The position numbers and the translations under genes are program-made. This document shows, piece by piece, positions 9,824 to 19,703 of a stretch of 64,000 nucleotides of DNA. Origin of the DNA: Candidatus Methylacidiphilales bacterium (GTDB lineage Bacteria; Pseudomonadota; Gammaproteobacteria; JASGCS01). The stretch spans positions 1 to 64,000 of the forward strand of contig JASGCS010000004.1 in NCBI GenBank assembly GCA_030054035.1, given 5' to 3'. Below the pieces are notes generated by a model that did no database searches, was not told the DNA's origin, and worked only from the letters and a program-made list of their open reading frames with translations. How positions within the stretch are numbered: the first letter of the stretch is position 1; each line of letters begins with the position of its first letter.

Positions 9824-10750
9824 ATGGATAAAAATATCACACCCCAACACATCCTATCGCTATACCGATTACCTCTTAACCAATTGATTTGGCAGGCAGG
9901 TGATGTGCTAAGAAAATATTTTGATTCAGATAAAATTCAAAAAAGTACTCTCTGTAATATTAAAACTGGTGGATGCCCTGAGGATTGTGGTTATTGTGGG
10001 CAAAGCGCACATTGGAAAAATGTAAAGATCACTAAAGAGAAATTAATATCAATTGAAGAGCTTACTAAACAATGTCAAGAAGCAAAGAATAACGGAGCTG
10101 ATAGGTTTTGCATTGCAGCTGCTTGGAGAACTCCTCCAAAGGATGATTTTAATAAAGTACTAGACATGATAAGCACAATACATAGTTTCGGTCTTGAAAG
10201 TTGCGCAACCTTAGGTATGCTAACTGAGCAACAAGCAACTGCATTAGCTGGAGTTGGTCTTAGCTATTACAATCATAATTTAGACACCTCTCGTGAGTAC
10301 TATCCTAAGGTTGTTTCCACAAGAACCTATGAGCAGCGTTTGGAAACCTTAGCCAATGCACGCAGTAAAGGAATAAAACTATGCTGTGGTGGGATTATTG
10401 GAATGGGTGAAACTAGAGACGATAGATGTGGCCTTTTATTTGAACTTTTCAAATTACAACCAGAATCAGTTCCTATAAATCAATTGGTAGGTGTACCTGG
10501 AACACCACTTGGCACATCAGAGAAATTAGATCACATTGAATTTATTCGTACCATTGCTATTGCAAGAATTTTAATGCCAAATTCATGGGTAAGAATTTCA
10601 GCGGGTAGAGATACCATGAACGATGAATTACAAATGTTATGTTTTCTTGCAGGAGCCAATTCATTGTTTATTGGAGATAAACTACTTACCGTATCAAATG
10701 CTTCACTGCAACATGATAAAGAACTGCTCAGTGCTCTAGTTGGCACTTAA
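9824..10750 (+). CDS. bioB: Biotin synthase BioB
   Basis: BioB is a radical-SAM enzyme that inserts sulfur into dethiobiotin to make biotin. The 4Fe-4S motif CPEDCGYC is present at about residues 46-53. Other family blocks are also visible: YNHNLDTSREYY, CCGGIIGMGE, PINQLVGVPGTPL and VRISAGRDTM, whose Arg coordinates the 2Fe-2S cluster. The 308-residue length is normal. The frame extends upstream to 9794, but the ATG at 9824 is preferred because it follows a TATAAT by six bases and matches the family N terminus. No other biotin genes are nearby. The GG before the cluster motif (usually GA) is a minor difference. Confidence 0.94.
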   Translation: MDKNITPQHILSLYRLPLNQLIWQAGDVLRKYFDSDKIQKSTLCNIKTGGCPEDCGYCGQSAHWKNVKITKEKLISIEELTKQCQEAKNNGADRFCIAAAWRTPPKDDFNKVLDMISTIHSFGLESCATLGMLTEQQATALAGVGLSYYNHNLDTSREYYPKVVSTRTYEQRLETLANARSKGIKLCCGGIIGMGETRDDRCGLLFELFKLQPESVPINQLVGVPGTPLGTSEKLDHIEFIRTIAIARILMPNSWVRISAGRDTMNDELQMLCFLAGANSLFIGDKLLTVSNASLQHDKELLSALVGT

Positions 10751-10795
10751 TTTATTTTTGTATACATGGTAAAATAAGCCTGAAGTTTACTGGAG
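10747..10795 (+). promoter_or_regulatory. Promoter and ribosome binding site of the giant exoprotein gene
   Basis: A -35-like TTAATT (10747-10752), a 17 bp spacer and a -10 TAAAAT (10770-10775) precede a leader of roughly 27 nt that carries GGAG at 10792-10795. The GGAG is 13 nt before the preferred ATG at 10809 and 4 nt before a possible TTG at 10800. Unlike most operon heads in this window, this gene has a real leader. Confidence 0.45.
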
Positions 10796-10808
10796 TAAAT
10801 TGTATTTT

Positions 10809-13800
10809 ATGAAAAAGTTTTTTTGTGTATTTTTATGTCCTGCGCTGTTTAGTTTTATCGTCTCTACTGCATCATTAAGTTTAGCCTCACCCCAGCTATC
10901 GTCTATCCAAGATGGCCAAGCCACCGTTAGTCAATCCCCTAACACCACCACCATCAATCAAACCTCATCTGCTACCACTATTACCTGGAACTCATTTAAT
11001 GTACAGGCCAACGAACAAGTAATCTTTAACCAACCCTCTACGACAGCTATTGCTATTAACCATATCCTAGATAGCAACCCTTCCCAGATATTTGGTTCTA
11101 TCTCAGCTAATGGCAGAATCATTCTCTTAAACCCACAAGGCTTCTACTTCGGAGCCAACTCATCTGTTTCAGCAAACACCTTCATTGCAGCATCCACTAG
11201 CTTAACCAATACCATCTACAACCCAACCACCAATACCCTCACCATCATCAATCCCACCATCCTTAACAACTCCATTCAAGCCCTCGGACAAATCTCCACC
11301 ACAAAAACTCAACTCATCGCCAAAACTATCACCCAACAAGGAACCATCTCCTCCACCCCCCATGGCTCCATCTCAATCAGAGCCACAAATAACATCACCA
11401 TTCAAGGAACCATCACCTCACCACAAGGCACCATAGATATCTTCGCCACCAATGGCACCGCCACTGCAACCCCAACCGCATCAATCTCCACCACCACTGC
11501 TAACTACGACTCAAATCAACCAGCAGGATTTATAGAATTTTCAGGTAAAACCATTGACCTACAAGCCCAGCCCTTCACCCTCAACTCCCAAGATACCCTA
11601 CTCTTAGATCCTGACTATATATCCATCGTTGGAGGAACCCAACTAGCTCCCTGTCCTGATGCTGCAAATCAATGCGGATTTGATTCAGGAAGTCAAATCA
11701 CTGACACCACCGATACCAATGGTCTTGGTGTAGATGGGCTAGGAACAACATATATCTACGAAGATACTCTAGAGGATGTTTCATCAGGCACTATTTCACT
11801 CTCCGCACTTAAAGGTATTTCAATGACTGGCACCTTTACTTCAGGACTTAACTTATCTTCAAATGTAAGCCTATCTTTAACTACTACTTGTACTAGTTCT
11901 GTATGCACAGGCACCAATGACAATATAACTATTTCTCAAACAATTACAACACAAGGTTCTGGGTCTGTTTCTGTGACTTCTAAGTCCAATATTGCGATCT
12001 CTAGCAATATAAATTCAAGTACAAGTATTTCACTAAGCACTCAGAATGGTCGAGATATTTCAATTAGTGGAAATTTACAGTCAGCTACCACAATGACAAT
12101 AATTTCTAAAGGATTAATAAAATCTACAGGTACTTTTACTTCTGGTAATGCATTAATAATCTCTTCTATATCAGATAGGATTGATATTGATGGGTCAGTG
12201 TCAAGCGCAAACACCTTATCGATTTCTGCTGCGAAAAATATTACCCTAGGTGCGAGTGTTAGAGGTACAACTTCGGTTGTAATTGATGCTGGAAGCGCAA
12301 TGCCAGATCAGAATATTTTGATACGAATTATAGGTGAATTTACCAACACTGAGACGGGTGTAAATATTACTGCTATCTCTCATCCAGATTTTAGCTCAAC
12401 CATTTCTTTTGGAGCAAGTTTAAATGTTAAGTCGTTAACTCTAAGCTCAGACTATCTCACTTTTGCTAAGTCAAGTAGTATAACCACTACCGCTAATGGA
12501 GCTATCAACCTAACCACTAAAGAAAGCATTGGTTCAGATACAAATCCAATTACTATAGTTCAAGCCGCATCAACCAGTAATCTTATTGCAAATAGTACTT
12601 TAGGTGATATTTATCTACAATCATCCTCAGGCTCATTGACACTAGGAAATATCACAGCAACAAAAGTTTCTATTAAAACTCCTGATCAAAATAGTATTAT
12701 AGTAAAAGGTGTTATTTCTGCAAGTAATTCAATAACTTTACGCTCAGGTAATATTACATCAGACAATGGAAAAATAAACTCACCTTCTATTACTATTTCT
12801 GCACTGACTGGCTCAATAGGGTCTGCTACCAATTCGCTTGGGCTTTCTAACGGGATTACCTACACTGCAACACAAGGGAGTTTTACCACTTTAACTTTAA
12901 TGGCAAATAGCAATATGTATTATCTTTCAAGAAATGATGCTGTTATTAATTTACTTGAGAATATTCCAATCACAGCGACTGTAATCAATTTAACTCAAGA
13001 GGGAGATAATAATATCACCATTGCAAATGCAATTGCTAGAGAGAGCGCCTCATTAACATTGCAGGCTAAAAGTATTTTAGCAGACAATGGAAAAATTATA
13101 GTCAATGGGTCAATTAATGCAAAAAATATAAAACTTGTAGCGGCTGGAGGAATTGAATTTGCCAGCGGGGTGAATTTAACAGCCGAATCTTATGAGATTG
13201 ATTTTTCTAAAGGAGATTTTGGAAGTGATGTAAATCCAATTACCCTGGTTAAACCTGCTACGTTTGCAAACACCCAAACCCTAACAATTTTCTCAAGAAG
13301 TAGTGTTTATTCTGAAGGAAGCGTTTATCTTACGAGTCTACAGGATATCGTAATAAATTCAATTGCCACAAATACTACTGGAACATGCGCACCAGCACCA
13401 GCACCCTGTAGCGGAGTAACCATTCAAATTAAAGCACCAGCAATCAGAGGTGTTGAGACGATATCTATTCGAGCAAATAGTAAATTGAAATTAATTGCCA
13501 CTACTGGCTCAATCGGAACAATTGAGAGTCCAGTGGCTATTTCATTTACCGACACAATTTCAGATACCAATTTGTTATTGCAGGCAGATGCTGGTTCGGT
13601 GTATTTAAAACATGCCAGCAATGTAATACAATTATTAGAAGGAAAATTTTCAATTGCCGAGACAGGGGTAATTTCACTAGAGCAAACTTCGGGTGATTTG
13701 AGTATTGCTAATGAAATATCTATAATTTATCGACTAAGACTAAAAGCATCTAACGGAAGCATTGTTAATTCTCTTGGCACAAGTATTAGTGCGAGCGCGA

Positions 13801-16800
13801 TTGAATTGATCGCACAGGGAACTGATAAAAATATCGGAACTATCGTTCGACCTTTTACATTATCAATTAGAAGTAGCCCTGATACTCAATTTACAAATAG
13901 TAATTTAATCTTAACTAGCAGTCGGTCAATTTATCTTGTTGGCGATAAAGTTACTGATTACTTAAAAGGGTTGATAACATGGAGCACTAGTGGCTTGCTT
14001 CATCTGAAACAAAATTCAGCAATTCATTTCTCAGAAAATATTTCAGTGGCTAATCCGATTGAATTTAATAGCCTTTCTGCAATCACTATTGGGCCAAATA
14101 TATCTTTGACAGTCGGAAGTCTTACTTTAACAGCCGGTGGTATGATTGGATCAAGCGCACAAAAGATCGCGATTTTAAAAACATCTGTCAATACAATTGA
14201 TGTGGTTACTTTTAGTGCAAGCGCGTCAGGAGGGATATTTATCTCCAGTACTGGAGCCATACAGCTTGGCAATATCACTGAAAATAGCACAGACACAACT
14301 TCAATTGACATTTCTGCGACTGTAATAACCAAAACAGCTAGTTCTGTTATTTCAAAAGGAGCGACAAGTATAAAATTATCTCTAACGGCCACCAGTGGCT
14401 CAATTGGTACGGCAAGTAATCCAATTAAAATTACTGGTGATATTGGGAGCTCCAATTTTTTCGCATCCGCCATCACAAATGAAAGTGGAGTTTATTTAGA
14501 AACAGAATCCAATGTTCTCTCAGTCCTACTCCCACTTTTTTCCATTAGTGATGCAAGCCTCGGGATAAAATTATCTCCATCTGGTACGCTTTCTTTGACT
14601 CAGTCAATGGGGGATATTACACTAGCTGCGCCAATTAAGATTTTAGAACAAAAACTTAAATTATTCAGATTGGTTGCTTCAAAAGGGAGCATAATAACTT
14701 CACTTCCTTTCGATGCTACTACTACTAGTCCCTTTATAGAAGTTCCAGAATTGTATTTACAGGCTTTAGGTGATAGTATGTCTCCTACTGCTAGTCTAGG
14801 TAATATTGGTAGTGAATTAAATCCATTTTATATAAAAACCAAACTCGCTAGTACTGCAACCCTGTTAACTGGATCTACAGGATCAATTTATTTAATTAAT
14901 GATAATTCTTCTAATTTACTTAATTATCTCAATGCAGCGATTACCCCTGGTTCATCTGGAAATCTACGCCTGATCGCTAGTAGTGGAAACATCTCACTTA
15001 CCGCAAACATATCTAGAACTTCTGGATTAATTCTTGAGGCAAAATCGGGCTCAATCATAACGCAAGCAAATATCTCAATAACCACTAATGCAAATTTACA
15101 ACTAATCTCGGCAGGCTCAATCGGATCTTCAAGTTTACCTATTAGGATCAGTCAAAGTGCGAGTACTTCGGTGTATTCTGCCAATGCCAAGGCTGGAGAT
15201 ATTTACACACAAGGAGTAACCGCTTTAAATCTTGGCACTATTGAAAACGGTGTCCCAACTACTCCTGCAAATGCGTCAAGCACAATCAATATCATAGCCC
15301 CAAACATTACTATGCAAACCACAGGCATGTTTAAAATCCCAATAAATACTAATCTTTTGTTAGAGGCAACCGTAGGTTCACTGGGTGCGTCCGCGACTTC
15401 TCCATTAATATTTGATTCTTTTGCTAGTGTAGTTTCCTCAACCAATCTCATCCTCAAGGCAAGTAAAGGGTCGGTATATTTGCAACATAAAAATGACGCC
15501 TCCACTTTGCTTAATGGTGAAATTGTTCTAAGTAGTTCTGGCACTTTAGCGATACTTCAGAAAGATGGAGTTTTTTTAATTAAACCCACAGCTACTACTA
15601 GATTGAATATATTAATTCCACTTTCATTTACTGGTACAGTAGTTTTTAACGCACTTGCAGGAAATTTAACTTTAAGCCATGAATCTAACAACTACGCAAG
15701 AATTGACTTGCCTAATTCAAAAATTACTCTCATTGCTGGCGGGTCGAATTCTGTAACTTCTAGTTCAGTTGAGAATCATGTAAAGGCATCGGTTATTACC
15801 TTAACCGCAAATGGTGGTTCTGTCGGAAGCATTGAAAACCCAATTACTGTGATCCCATGGAGTGGTAATAATGAGGCTACCGTAACAGCTACGAACCTAA
15901 TTATCTCGGCAAGTACAACAGCAGGTTCAATTGGATTGGCAAGCATGTCAAATGCCCTAGGTCTTCGCAACGCATCATTAACGTATGATACAAGTTATGA
16001 TAGTTCAAATTTTAGTCTCGGAACATTATCTTTAGTTCAGTTAACTGGAGATATTATTATTAACTCACTAGTAACGGTACCAACACACTTTGGACTGCGT
16101 GCCATTTCCGGCTCTATACTTTCAAGAGAAAATACCTATGCAATTGATATTCAATCACCAACCCTATCCCTCGTTGTTGACAATGTAGATAAAACGATAG
16201 GTGAGCAAACAAGCCCAATTAAAATTGATCAAAGATTTGGATTTTTTAATGGAAAGGCAAAACAGATTTATCTTAGCGCAGTTTCCAGTTTAACCTTAGG
16301 AGAGGTGCAGAGCAATCACCTTAATGGAACTATCAGAATCACTGCACAAAGAATTTATGGCAAACCAGATGCGAATTCGGTAAATATTTCTGGAAGTGGT
16401 GTATCTATTACTCTCACCGCAACTAATGGTTCAATTGGAACTTTTTCACTCCCAGTATCTATTTCTCAGAACCCAGCTTCACTTCAATTGAACGCTAGTG
16501 TAGGGTCGGTGTATATCAGCCAAAATCAACTGAATGCGAATAGCTTACCTGCAAACCTTGGTGTGACTATTGCAGATGGAGGCTGGTTCGGATATTCAAC
16601 GCTAGAAAATGGAGATTTGGATGTTGCACTTTTATTGCGATCTTATAGTTTGAATAGTGCTAACAAACTTAGCTTGCATGCTAAGAATGGAAGTATTATT
16701 GATTCACTTAGCTCATTACTTAGTGCAAATTCTCTAACACTGATTGCAAGTGGTTCAATTGGTTCTGCAAGCGCCCCTATTGAAATTCGCACAGATAAAA

Positions 16801-19703
16801 CTGAATGGGATAGCAATTCTCTGTCAACAAGTGTTGGCGCATCGAGTGATACTTACCTTAAGGCAAATAAATCAGGTGTGTTGCTTGCTTCACACTCATT
16901 TTCAAGTACCGGAGTCTTTTCCTTAACACAAACCAGTGGGAATATCACCATACCGTTCCCAATTTTCTCTTCAGGAACTCTCATTCTTTATGCTAATTCA
17001 CCTAGCGCTACAATTGTAGCATTAAGTGGCGCTTCTCTAAGTGCAAGTAGTATTCAGCTACGAACAGATGGCGGTGATATTGGAACTTTAAGTGCTAGAA
17101 TTTTAGTCTATGGAATTAGCGCCTCAAATGATATTTTTAATAGTTTTACCGCCACAACTACAGGCACAGTCTATTTAGCTAGAGATGGGGTTTCAACTTT
17201 GCTTTGTGCTTCAGCAGGAGCATCTTCCGCTCCATGCTCTGGATCGTCTTCATATAATATTGCCGATGCTACATCGGCAAGCACAGATGTCTCATCATCA
17301 TGCGGGGCGACAACGACAACTCCAATAACGATTAATATCACAGGCGATATTACTAATCGAACTGGCTGTACCATAATAGGTAATGGAGTTATATCACTTA
17401 CTTCAACAGGTAATATTGGAAGTCAAGAGCGCCCAATTATTTTGGATAGAAGTATAACTTCAGTAACAATATCCGCTGGTAGTAATGGTTCAATTTATCT
17501 TCAGTGTGGTGATGGTTGTGCCTCCACACTATTAACTAGTTCAGCTTTTGCTTCACTTCTCAGTGGGAACCAATTGTTTATAACCCAAACCACTGGAAAT
17601 ATTCTTTTATCATCTTTAACAGCGGTTTATAAATTAAATTTAATTGCGCTTGGAGTGAATGCCACTATTTCAAGTACGAGTATTATAAGTGTCCCAGCGC
17701 TTACTCTCAGCGCGCCATACGGAGGAGTAGGTTCTTCAACTACTAACTTTATAATCTCTTGTGGGAGTTCATGTACTAGTTGGACCTCAAGCACGTTATC
17801 TATACAAACCTCACAAAATGGTTTTATTTCTCTAAAAAGTTCAAATCAAGGACTAGATCTAGCAACCATAAAAGGTTTTTATAATGGGACGCTAAGTTTA
17901 TTTAAAGATAGCGGTGATTTTAATATCACTAACTCTCTTAATTATCCTGAGGCCGCAATAAATCTTAGAGTGGAGTATGTTGGCTCATTGAATGGAAAAT
18001 TAACCATGGCTGATGGTATTTACATTGTTGCTAGATCACTTTCATTGTATTCCAGTTCTGCGATTGGGTTGTATTCTTACGATATTACTGGTGCTGTAAT
18101 TTCTACGCAAAATAGTCCGATTAGAATTGAAGTGGGATATTTTCGCACAGATCCATTTAAAGAAGATGGTGCTGTTAAATTGCAGGTGGCTAGCACTCAA
18201 GGGGATGCAAACGCAACCAGTGATATTTTTATTAAAGCGATAAATCAATTTAATATTAATTCTGCAACTCCATTAGTGATTCATTCGCTCGTAACCCCAC
18301 CCTCAGTTTCTACCAGTAATGATTTATATATTGATGCAGCATCTTTACTATTTAGCGGAACGCTCACTACTTCAAAATCACTCTCCATAACAGGATATAG
18401 AGTTTTTATCCGATCTGAGGCACCTTTGATAGATAAAGAGTTAGCCATCTCAACAGGTTTTTCAAGTGTCACAATTTTTAACTCTATTCATTTTCGTGTT
18501 GAAGCACTTGGATCATCCGAATTGATTTCGTTTGGCATTGGAACTCTTACCAGCCAACAAATATTATTAGAAACAAGTTTTGGAAGTGCATCCCCGTCAT
18601 CAATAATTATATCAAGATATGGTCCATATGTAAACGGTGTTGCTCCGACACTAACAACTTTTAGCAATGTGGTCGTGCCACATTGTATTGCCAATGTGCT
18701 CATCGCAATTTGCTCTCCTAATGGTACGGTTGGAACTGCGACTAACCCAATTGTTTTATTTTCTAGTGGCTCATCTACAGAGTCTATTGGTTTACGAGAA
18801 TTGACAACCAGATTTGTCAGTAAAAATGCTATTTATCTCTCTAGCTATAGCACAAATAATTTTAATTATTTATTTAGTAATTCTAATGCTACAAACGGAG
18901 TTTTGGATTCGGTTAGACTTGGCTCACTACTCGCGGGGGCTTATTTTACCAATGGAAACAGTAAAGATAACTGCTGTATTTTAGACTTTACCTATTTGAT
19001 CGCAACACCAGTAAGTGGGAATTATGTCCCAACCTGGGGGTATATTGCTTTTCTTGATACGGGAATTAATCAAACTACAATGGGTACGAACTATCTCAAA
19101 TTACAAATAAGGGCGACATATTCTGAAACTTCTACTTCTACTCTAAGCGGGCAAACAGTTGTTGCAATGGGTGATAATCGTTTTGCGCAGGTAAGTGTTG
19201 TGAGTAAATCAGGTGCTGTGATTATAGCTAATAATCTAGCAATTGAGGCGAGTGGCTCAATTGGTGGATATGTTGAACAGCCCGGACTAATTAATTCTAC
19301 ATACTATCTAATTAAAAGCCCGGAAAGCCAATTAAAATTTGCTAGTGTATCGACACTAAACTTGCGTTCAACCTATGGATTTATATATGCTAAAAACAAC
19401 TCTAATGTAAATCCAGATACAATAGTTGCAAGTGCAGGATATTTAAAAAATTACTATCGCGATAATCAACCAATCATACCCACTGGCATAGTTGAGATTT
19501 TTACCAATGATAATACACTATCATTGTATCAACCTTTAAAATTCACCTACCCAGCATCTCCAAAAAAGAAATATCCATTTGAAAAAAATGGTACCCTTGC
19601 AGAGCTTTTTTATTTGATTTTTGACAATATATTAGGTGTTGACTGTAAGAAAAATAATGTATTTTCTCGATTATTTAAACCATTGTGTTATTCACCAATT
19701 TAG
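10809..19703 (+). CDS. Giant two-partner-secretion (TpsA/filamentous hemagglutinin-like) exoprotein
   Basis: This protein of about 2964 residues starts with a signal peptide (MKKFFCVFLCPALFSFIV, cleavage near LAS/PQ). A TPS secretion domain follows at about residues 30-300, with the hallmark ILDSNPSQIFGSI (86-98) and LLNPQGFYFG (106-115) blocks; such domains are exported by an outer-membrane TpsB pore. From about residue 570 onward roughly twenty copies of a motif like GSIGTxxNPI recur about every 100-130 residues, alternating with GSVYLxxxxxxxLL segments, consistent with a long beta-helix shaft. The extreme C terminus holds two Cys, 2946 and 2960, near the end, reminiscent of the HMW1 anchor loop. 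No TpsB gene lies in the window. The TPS domain is C-rich and the rest AT-rich. I prefer the ATG at 10809 over a TTG nine bases upstream because it starts the signal peptide. An adhesin role is inferred. Confidence 0.88.
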   Translation: MKKFFCVFLCPALFSFIVSTASLSLASPQLSSIQDGQATVSQSPNTTTINQTSSATTITWNSFNVQANEQVIFNQPSTTAIAINHILDSNPSQIFGSISANGRIILLNPQGFYFGANSSVSANTFIAASTSLTNTIYNPTTNTLTIINPTILNNSIQALGQISTTKTQLIAKTITQQGTISSTPHGSISIRATNNITIQGTITSPQGTIDIFATNGTATATPTASISTTTANYDSNQPAGFIEFSGKTIDLQAQPFTLNSQDTLLLDPDYISIVGGTQLAPCPDAANQCGFDSGSQITDTTDTNGLGVDGLGTTYIYEDTLEDVSSGTISLSALKGISMTGTFTSGLNLSSNVSLSLTTTCTSSVCTGTNDNITISQTITTQGSGSVSVTSKSNIAISSNINSSTSISLSTQNGRDISISGNLQSATTMTIISKGLIKSTGTFTSGNALIISSISDRIDIDGSVSSANTLSISAAKNITLGASVRGTTSVVIDAGSAMPDQNILIRIIGEFTNTETGVNITAISHPDFSSTISFGASLNVKSLTLSSDYLTFAKSSSITTTANGAINLTTKESIGSDTNPITIVQAASTSNLIANSTLGDIYLQSSSGSLTLGNITATKVSIKTPDQNSIIVKGVISASNSITLRSGNITSDNGKINSPSITISALTGSIGSATNSLGLSNGITYTATQGSFTTLTLMANSNMYYLSRNDAVINLLENIPITATVINLTQEGDNNITIANAIARESASLTLQAKSILADNGKIIVNGSINAKNIKLVAAGGIEFASGVNLTAESYEIDFSKGDFGSDVNPITLVKPATFANTQTLTIFSRSSVYSEGSVYLTSLQDIVINSIATNTTGTCAPAPAPCSGVTIQIKAPAIRGVETISIRANSKLKLIATTGSIGTIESPVAISFTDTISDTNLLLQADAGSVYLKHASNVIQLLEGKFSIAETGVISLEQTSGDLSIANEISIIYRLRLKASNGSIVNSLGTSISASAIELIAQGTDKNIGTIVRPFTLSIRSSPDTQFTNSNLILTSSRSIYLVGDKVTDYLKGLITWSTSGLLHLKQNSAIHFSENISVANPIEFNSLSAITIGPNISLTVGSLTLTAGGMIGSSAQKIAILKTSVNTIDVVTFSASASGGIFISSTGAIQLGNITENSTDTTSIDISATVITKTASSVISKGATSIKLSLTATSGSIGTASNPIKITGDIGSSNFFASAITNESGVYLETESNVLSVLLPLFSISDASLGIKLSPSGTLSLTQSMGDITLAAPIKILEQKLKLFRLVASKGSIITSLPFDATTTSPFIEVPELYLQALGDSMSPTASLGNIGSELNPFYIKTKLASTATLLTGSTGSIYLINDNSSNLLNYLNAAITPGSSGNLRLIASSGNISLTANISRTSGLILEAKSGSIITQANISITTNANLQLISAGSIGSSSLPIRISQSASTSVYSANAKAGDIYTQGVTALNLGTIENGVPTTPANASSTINIIAPNITMQTTGMFKIPINTNLLLEATVGSLGASATSPLIFDSFASVVSSTNLILKASKGSVYLQHKNDASTLLNGEIVLSSSGTLAILQKDGVFLIKPTATTRLNILIPLSFTGTVVFNALAGNLTLSHESNNYARIDLPNSKITLIAGGSNSVTSSSVENHVKASVITLTANGGSVGSIENPITVIPWSGNNEATVTATNLIISASTTAGSIGLASMSNALGLRNASLTYDTSYDSSNFSLGTLSLVQLTGDIIINSLVTVPTHFGLRAISGSILSRENTYAIDIQSPTLSLVVDNVDKTIGEQTSPIKIDQRFGFFNGKAKQIYLSAVSSLTLGEVQSNHLNGTIRITAQRIYGKPDANSVNISGSGVSITLTATNGSIGTFSLPVSISQNPASLQLNASVGSVYISQNQLNANSLPANLGVTIADGGWFGYSTLENGDLDVALLLRSYSLNSANKLSLHAKNGSIIDSLSSLLSANSLTLIASGSIGSASAPIEIRTDKTEWDSNSLSTSVGASSDTYLKANKSGVLLASHSFSSTGVFSLTQTSGNITIPFPIFSSGTLILYANSPSATIVALSGASLSASSIQLRTDGGDIGTLSARILVYGISASNDIFNSFTATTTGTVYLARDGVSTLLCASAGASSAPCSGSSSYNIADATSASTDVSSSCGATTTTPITINITGDITNRTGCTIIGNGVISLTSTGNIGSQERPIILDRSITSVTISAGSNGSIYLQCGDGCASTLLTSSAFASLLSGNQLFITQTTGNILLSSLTAVYKLNLIALGVNATISSTSIISVPALTLSAPYGGVGSSTTNFIISCGSSCTSWTSSTLSIQTSQNGFISLKSSNQGLDLATIKGFYNGTLSLFKDSGDFNITNSLNYPEAAINLRVEYVGSLNGKLTMADGIYIVARSLSLYSSSAIGLYSYDITGAVISTQNSPIRIEVGYFRTDPFKEDGAVKLQVASTQGDANATSDIFIKAINQFNINSATPLVIHSLVTPPSVSTSNDLYIDAASLLFSGTLTTSKSLSITGYRVFIRSEAPLIDKELAISTGFSSVTIFNSIHFRVEALGSSELISFGIGTLTSQQILLETSFGSASPSSIIISRYGPYVNGVAPTLTTFSNVVVPHCIANVLIAICSPNGTVGTATNPIVLFSSGSSTESIGLRELTTRFVSKNAIYLSSYSTNNFNYLFSNSNATNGVLDSVRLGSLLAGAYFTNGNSKDNCCILDFTYLIATPVSGNYVPTWGYIAFLDTGINQTTMGTNYLKLQIRATYSETSTSTLSGQTVVAMGDNRFAQVSVVSKSGAVIIANNLAIEASGSIGGYVEQPGLINSTYYLIKSPESQLKFASVSTLNLRSTYGFIYAKNNSNVNPDTIVASAGYLKNYYRDNQPIIPTGIVEIFTNDNTLSLYQPLKFTYPASPKKKYPFEKNGTLAELFYLIFDNILGVDCKKNNVFSRLFKPLCYSPI
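12525..19290 (+). repeat. Degenerate protein repeat array inside the giant exoprotein
   Basis: About twenty-one copies of a motif close to G-S-I-G-(S/T)-x-x-x-P-I recur, starting near 12529, 12808, 13215, 13508, 13838, 14138, 14398, 14803, 15115, 15376, 15818, 15925, 16195, 16428, 16753, 17073, 17413, 17721, 18058, 18723 and 19255. Many copies are followed within 30-60 residues by a GS(V/I)YL block and a Leu-Leu pair, then by a block ending in G-(D/N)-I. The copies are diverged at DNA level, so this is an old protein-level repeat rather than a recent duplication. Confidence 0.75.

Follow-up and report, generated by a model that had tools for sequence, protein, structure and literature searches.

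A C-rich, G-poor secretion head probably spread by recombination among giant exoprotein genes of one small genome

How does a secretion domain come to have a base composition of its own within an otherwise ordinary gene? The question is raised by a giant TpsA-type exoprotein gene of Candidatus Methylacidiphilales bacterium (GCA_030054035.1), lying in a window of 64,000 nucleotides (C4:1-64000, contig JASGCS010000004.1) of a 1,716,532-bp, 16-contig genome. A first-pass annotation had described the domain as C-rich with very little G on the coding strand, and had suggested either exchange among paralogs or codon choice selected for export. Our analysis, which relies on a single short-read-like assembly and on nearest genomes of the same class only, makes it likely that one TPS head, the part that would dock with the transporter TpsB, has moved through recombination between several genes for giant exoproteins. 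The parts of the gene on which the argument turns are as follows.

10809..19703, + strand: giant TpsA-type exoprotein gene, an intact open reading frame (ORF) with the Pfam domain PF05860 (TPS)
10882..11621, + strand: shared TPS-head module, delimited by near-identity to the C5 and C6 contig ends; the C15, C10, C3 and C1 ends stop inside it
10884..11603, + strand: C-rich, G-poor composition block, from a two-breakpoint maximum-likelihood fit
10809..10883, + strand: probable signal peptide, T-rich and different from those of other heads, judged by base make-up and the 5′ divergence of five heads
11622..19700, + strand: shaft of ordinary composition with no high-identity match to the other module genes

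The gene encodes 2,964 aa from the ATG at 10809 (2,967 aa from the TTG at 10800), its frame is open throughout to a stop ending at 19703, and the TPS domain spans aa 36-235 (68.3 bits, cut-off 33.5). The distinct composition of this domain proved to be real. Positions 11221-11280 contain exactly 27 C and 1 G at 46.7% GC, just as first reported, and the 740-bp module as a whole is 36% C and 10% G, with a GC content of 46.1% and a GC skew of -0.57, compared with 37.2% and -0.04 for the shaft (11722-19700). In 300-bp windows the skew falls from +0.13 (10550-10849) to -0.66 (11150-11449) and then recovers to -0.15 (11600-11899) and -0.05 (11900-12199). The likelihood fit on the gene, with a gain of 66.5 log units, allows starts of 10854-10932 and ends of 11588-11720 within 3 log units, a precision of about 80 bp at the 5′ edge and about 130 bp at the 3′ edge; by windows and fit alike the change is sharp rather than gradual. 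Of the span originally proposed, 10.88-11.8 kb, the start stands while the end has to be moved to about 11.60-11.72 kb, and downstream GC, put at 27-35%, measures mostly 32-41% in 300-bp windows. Our composition statistics come from a sample of 699,386 bp (41% of the genome); its windows overlap and lack independence, and the tests were picked after the data had been seen. Among the 16,841 coding 300-nt windows of this sample, the four with the most negative skew all lie inside the block, in agreement with the fit. The bias is extreme at third codon positions: over codons 100-199 the frequency of C there (C3) is 0.58 and that of G (G3) is 0.00, and module codon use departs from the background at Thr (ACC 76% versus 24%), Ile (ATC 62% versus 18%) and Leu (CTC 43% versus 9%).

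The genome holds further TpsA genes, with 13 PF05860 matches and two additional head starts (C15_L and C10_R) too short to match. In a BLAST comparison of 13 exoprotein genes, the head in the window is identical to the C5 contig end at 441 of 444 bp (99.3%) and to the C6 contig end at 309 of 311 bp (99.4%), and the remaining heads show about 67-78% DNA identity over their alignable parts. A whole-genome DNA search found pieces of the module at the ends of contigs C1, C3, C5, C6, C10 and C15. When all 32 contig ends were examined, four entered the module (C5_L, C6_R, C15_L, C10_R), three left it (C10_L, C3_L, C1_R), and C8_R started just beyond it. Terminal words of at least 55 nt are common to C15_L and C10_R and to C3_L and C1_R, the pattern that a repeat collapsed during short-read assembly would leave.

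The near-identical DNA sits in genes with different signals and different shafts, and its edges fall close to the signal-peptide junction and just past the TPS domain. Upstream, the flanks of five heads are dissimilar, with identity beginning at 10882 (at 10904 for C5) and C15 and C10 sharing about 10 bp more 5′ sequence than the others. The region before this edge (10800-10881) is 0.52 T and 0.12 C, and the sequence alone suggests a probable signal-peptide cleavage site. Downstream, C3 and C1 diverge directly after 11621, and C10 keeps 84% identity to C4 over a piece reaching 11800. From the module exits, open frames run to a stop over 8,212 codons in C3, 4,441 in C10 and 1,834 in C1; the C3 frame (C3:2 onward; L032 and L153) is incomplete at its 5′ end. 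The edges of composition (10884, 11603) thus coincide with those of identity (10882, 11621). At the level of DNA, exchange of the TPS head is evident among at least three genes (C4, C5 and C6) over 311-444 bp, and judging by the contig ends the head is probably common to five or more. We infer that the C15, C10, C3 and C1 copies are near-identical throughout. Many contig breaks in this genome fall within TpsA or other exoprotein genes, and for this reason the genome probably has more TpsA genes than the 13 matched heads suggest.

These observations would be explained if a single TpsB-docking head had passed among the genes by gene conversion or by recent spread, with upstream region, signal peptide and shaft remaining particular to each gene. 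Exchange would stop at the ends of homology, approximately at the signal-peptide junction upstream and just past the TPS domain downstream, and the composition boundary would be the module boundary, where a C-rich, G-poor head meets a shaft of host composition. We accordingly read the likeness of the heads as a product of recombination, not of selection on the DNA. Several points weigh against this account. The assembly has no second complete copy, as the module is represented in C15 and C10 by no more than its first ~45 bp and in C3 and C1 by no more than its final ~55 bp, and the pairing of heads with shafts in the partial copies is ambiguous. The five single-nucleotide differences form no mosaic conversion tracts, and recent copying without ongoing conversion fits equally well. 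Moreover, the C-rich, G-poor composition also occurs outside the module. One might suspect instead that a collapsed repeat was misjoined to the C4 gene, since contigs elsewhere do break inside the module; C4 nevertheless differs from C5 and C6 at five spread positions, the frame of the whole gene is open, and a misjoin would itself require several near-identical copies, so that an artefact of this kind is very improbable.

Exchange of TpsA heads is of a known general kind. In Neisseria meningitidis, according to the passages available to us (PMC3848433), TpsA is likewise modular, with a conserved N-terminal region of ~500 aa that contains the TPS domain, >98% identity among aligned TpsA and a variable remainder, and recombination occurs within TpsA genes as we propose here. 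There the varying part is the 3′ end, with truncated tpsC cassettes that lack a TPS domain as the source, whereas here a head-only module is found in different large genes and no silent cassettes were seen in this genome. Those same passages mention no base-composition block, and in the open-access papers searched we found no description of a TPS-head composition of this sort; the DNA signature is unusual. In other genomes, where 30 of 37 matches had loci and were compared for near-identical heads, genome G052 has two heads that are 97.9% identical and lack the skew. Their loci are alike over 2,555 bp, and the pair was set aside as a gene duplicate rather than a parallel case of head sharing. 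This genome, which belongs to the same class, also contains a 29,206-aa open frame that carries a TPS head (G052:C1:290030, L140).

The shared head is the part expected to meet the transporter. The mature head has a confident predicted fold for residues 1 to about 200, and its nearest solved structures by sequence and fold (Foldseek top hits) are the secretion domains of EtpA, HxuA and HMW1; recognition by TpsB has been assigned to the TPS domain in the parts of two papers that we consulted (PMC5422565, PMC10449530). The genome has two ShlB-type matches, a clear TpsB on C12 (583 aa, with ShlB, POTRA_2 and POTRA_3) and a weaker one on C11. Both lie on other contigs than the gene in the window and neither adjoins it; tpsB-tpsA adjacency is typical, not universal. 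One TpsB is described as serving several TpsA proteins in the cases of N. meningitidis TpsB2, Bordetella FhaC and Burkholderia BcpB (PMC10449530, as far as seen), and heads likewise outnumber TpsB genes here. In this genome 13 TPS matches face two ShlB-type matches, neither next to the gene, and the pairing is putative. All heads presumably use the same TpsB, and a shared head would then let different shafts use one transporter.

Why the head should be C-rich is a separate matter. The composition boundary does lie at a domain border, as first proposed, but the step from a composition of its own to exchange is weaker than it appeared, as the same C-rich, G-poor composition runs through the shaft repeats of TpsA genes C7a, C15 and C7b and is found in epmB, while the C16 head lacks it. 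This head is the closest divergent one (56% aa identity) and has a C3 of 0.10-0.13 over its first 300 codons, so that a head can do without C-richness. At the 135 residues where the two encode the same amino acid, third bases go from T in C16 to C in the module 33 times and from C to T 4 times, from A to C 17 times and from C to A 5 times, and from G to A 7 times and from A to G 0 times. Codon adaptation to high expression was ruled out by the low C3 of a stretch of ribosomal and elongation-factor genes, and a general property of TPS domains by heads in other genomes, where 36 loci were searched, 32 gave a tblastn hit (two pairs among them being the same place) and none of the 32 heads had C3 more than five times G3. 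In light of both results, the earlier suggestion that codon choice is selected for export gained no positive support. Position on the replication strand does not suffice alone, as third-position skew in the neighbours is mostly within ±0.3 and C7a, C7b and C7c differ on one contig and strand. GC-biased gene conversion is unlikely, since it should lift G along with C, and the idea of preferred RecA pairing sequences was dropped after a literature search without result.

Within the exoproteins the composition is associated with repetition. Of 882 windows from 29 exoprotein-like ORFs (a crude filter of Ser+Thr+Asn >27% and a length of 300 aa or more), those that matched another part of the set well had C3 0.300 and G3 0.052 (n = 129), against 0.150 and 0.087 for those with no match at all (n = 714). 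Among ORFs with at least two windows of each kind, repeated windows had higher C3 in 12 of 12 and lower G3 in 10 of 12, though the C3 excess was small in several (0.02 in C2b, C15 and C10); the remaining 17 of the 29 lacked enough windows. A generic repeat effect was ruled out, with a Spearman coefficient of -0.003 over 2,691 windows outside the exoprotein filter and Sel1-type repeats that are not C-rich; Sel1-like repeat genes stand in a row on C5 (L080, about 4.9-9.7 kb), with similar N-termini and no C-richness. The highest C3-G3 differences of all ORFs sampled, 0.41 and 0.43, belong to exoprotein fragments L059:3-1490 (C13) and L067:3-1322 (C7), both of which carry a ~59-residue repeat (..LQGNLALIGA..), are cut off by contig ends and could belong to a single gene. 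Outside the exoproteins, 4 of 449 ORFs of at least 150 aa have a C3-G3 of 0.2 or more. The strongest is epmB (C5:43853-44806; L080:3854-4807), with C3 0.44 and G3 0.06, a score of 368.9 bits to the NCBIfam EpmB model, just under the cut-off of 369.3, a skew bounded by the gene between ordinary adjacent ORFs, and nothing closely similar to it among the sample's top repeats. Weaker cases of the same composition are tyrS (L071:294-1559) and a PQQ-dehydrogenase-like ORF (L056:280-1332). As epmB is not repeated, recombination is not required for the composition, and this gene is a counter-example within the genome that any explanation must cover.

The strand bias also takes the form of base runs. 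The coding strand of the module has 18 C-runs (24.3/kb; 13.9 under a synonymous-swap null, P = 0.026) and no G-run, the shaft has 37 and 44 C- and G-runs in 7,979 bp, and non-exoprotein ORFs have 4.83 C-runs and 5.65 G-runs per kb; strongly asymmetric 740-bp windows account for 63 of the 1,317 exoprotein windows and for 9 of the 5,252 others. Near the 3′ border lies one further feature.

11566..11598, − strand: predicted G-quadruplex motif with five G-tracts on the template strand (regular-expression match), 23 bp short of where shared identity ends on the 3′ side

The 28-base core of this motif is present unchanged at the same place in C1, C3, C4 and C10 and has no other genome match at up to 3 mismatches, and four of the six canonical G-quadruplex motifs in the sample are copies of it.

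Three explanations for the composition were weighed. The head and the exoprotein repeats may be relics of a source of other composition, or of a past mutational regime, that are drifting towards the host while older shafts have already done so. Across six C-rich arrays, third-base changes confined to one copy lose C 40 times and gain it 17 times (p = 0.003), and three arrays, two of which overlap the six, give 18 losses and 6 gains, so that the composition is not the present mutational equilibrium; the excess of T>C (33) over C>T (4) relative to C16 is in keeping with a relic. C lost through raw mutation could nevertheless be put back by conversion or selection, no donor was found, with a scan of contigs from other genomes using the head giving no relative, and epmB, whose homologs occur throughout the class at 40-52% identity among the matches listed, gives no sign of foreign origin. 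We regard a relic as a real possibility that falls well short of even chances. Selection on codons or mRNA, through unstructured mRNA that makes export easier or a tract resembling a Rho-utilisation site at which transcription would end once translation fails, could draw on a predicted RNA fold of -91.8 kcal/mol (mean -118.9, standard deviation 8.6, for 60 host-codon recodings), on YC dimers at 16.9 per 78 nt (7.1 in the shaft), and on the Rho RNA-binding domain encoded in the genome. Any G-poor RNA yields such values, however, and the ribosomal genes, the C16 head and the 32 heads elsewhere all speak against it, making this the least likely of the three.

It is doubtful, and only marginally less so, that the strand-asymmetric DNA itself promotes exchange, the template-strand G-runs and the motif near the 3′ border forming a tract prone to recombination, as has been suggested for Borrelia vls and demonstrated close to gonococcal pilE. 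The sections of the vls papers that we saw (PMC11499132, PMC3585125) report 21-27 G-runs/kb for the coding strand and hardly any for the opposite one, 49% GC against 28.6%, and a skew of +0.52. Module and vls, a surface-protein family undergoing gene conversion, are alike in raised GC, extreme strand skew and one-strand G-runs, and the position of the motif and the higher C3 of repeated windows in all 12 testable exoprotein ORFs also fit. Against this, some C2b repeats at 85-94% identity are not C-rich, and the non-repeated epmB has 16.8 C-runs/kb and 0 G-runs. The motif is only suggestive, because it is expected in 4-6% of shuffles given the C-richness (it arose 206 times in 5,000 codon shuffles and 295 times in 5,000 synonymous swaps), and its position was noticed after the fact. 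A G-quadruplex motif also lies near the recombining gonococcal pilE gene, where in the part of the report consulted (PMC3547852) recombination depends on it; the present motif is a prediction and lies within a coding region. Unlike vls, the protein is unrelated, the G-runs are on the template strand, and the genes are intact and dispersed rather than one expression site with a silent array: the exits lead into long open frames and the head starts have flanks of their own. Switching is hypothetical here. The resemblance is a lead, not proof, and we would give little credence to an independently evolved mirror image of the vls signature, in which TpsA docking heads and many internal repeats carry one-strand G-runs because such DNA favours exchange.

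As for the rest of the gene, the shaft is rich in Ser, Thr, Ile and Leu, and a Pfam search, run on the whole protein only, matched neither the shaft nor a C-terminal domain. The C-terminal tails of the C4, C2b, C15 and C3 exoproteins are alike; all have two cysteines and a hydrophobic segment and might serve to anchor the protein at the surface. The gene is flanked by a Radical_SAM/BATS protein upstream and PEP carboxylase downstream.

The locus offers a second, unrelated case for asking whether strand-asymmetric G-run DNA aids the recombination of surface-protein genes, a question that in the literature searched has been raised only for Borrelia vls. Were the mirror-image reading true, such G-runs would be a general mark of recombining surface-protein DNA, whatever the coding strand or the protein. 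For the organism, the probable spread of the TPS head would mean that several giant exoproteins of one small genome have an interchangeable docking head, so that one transporter could serve many shafts.
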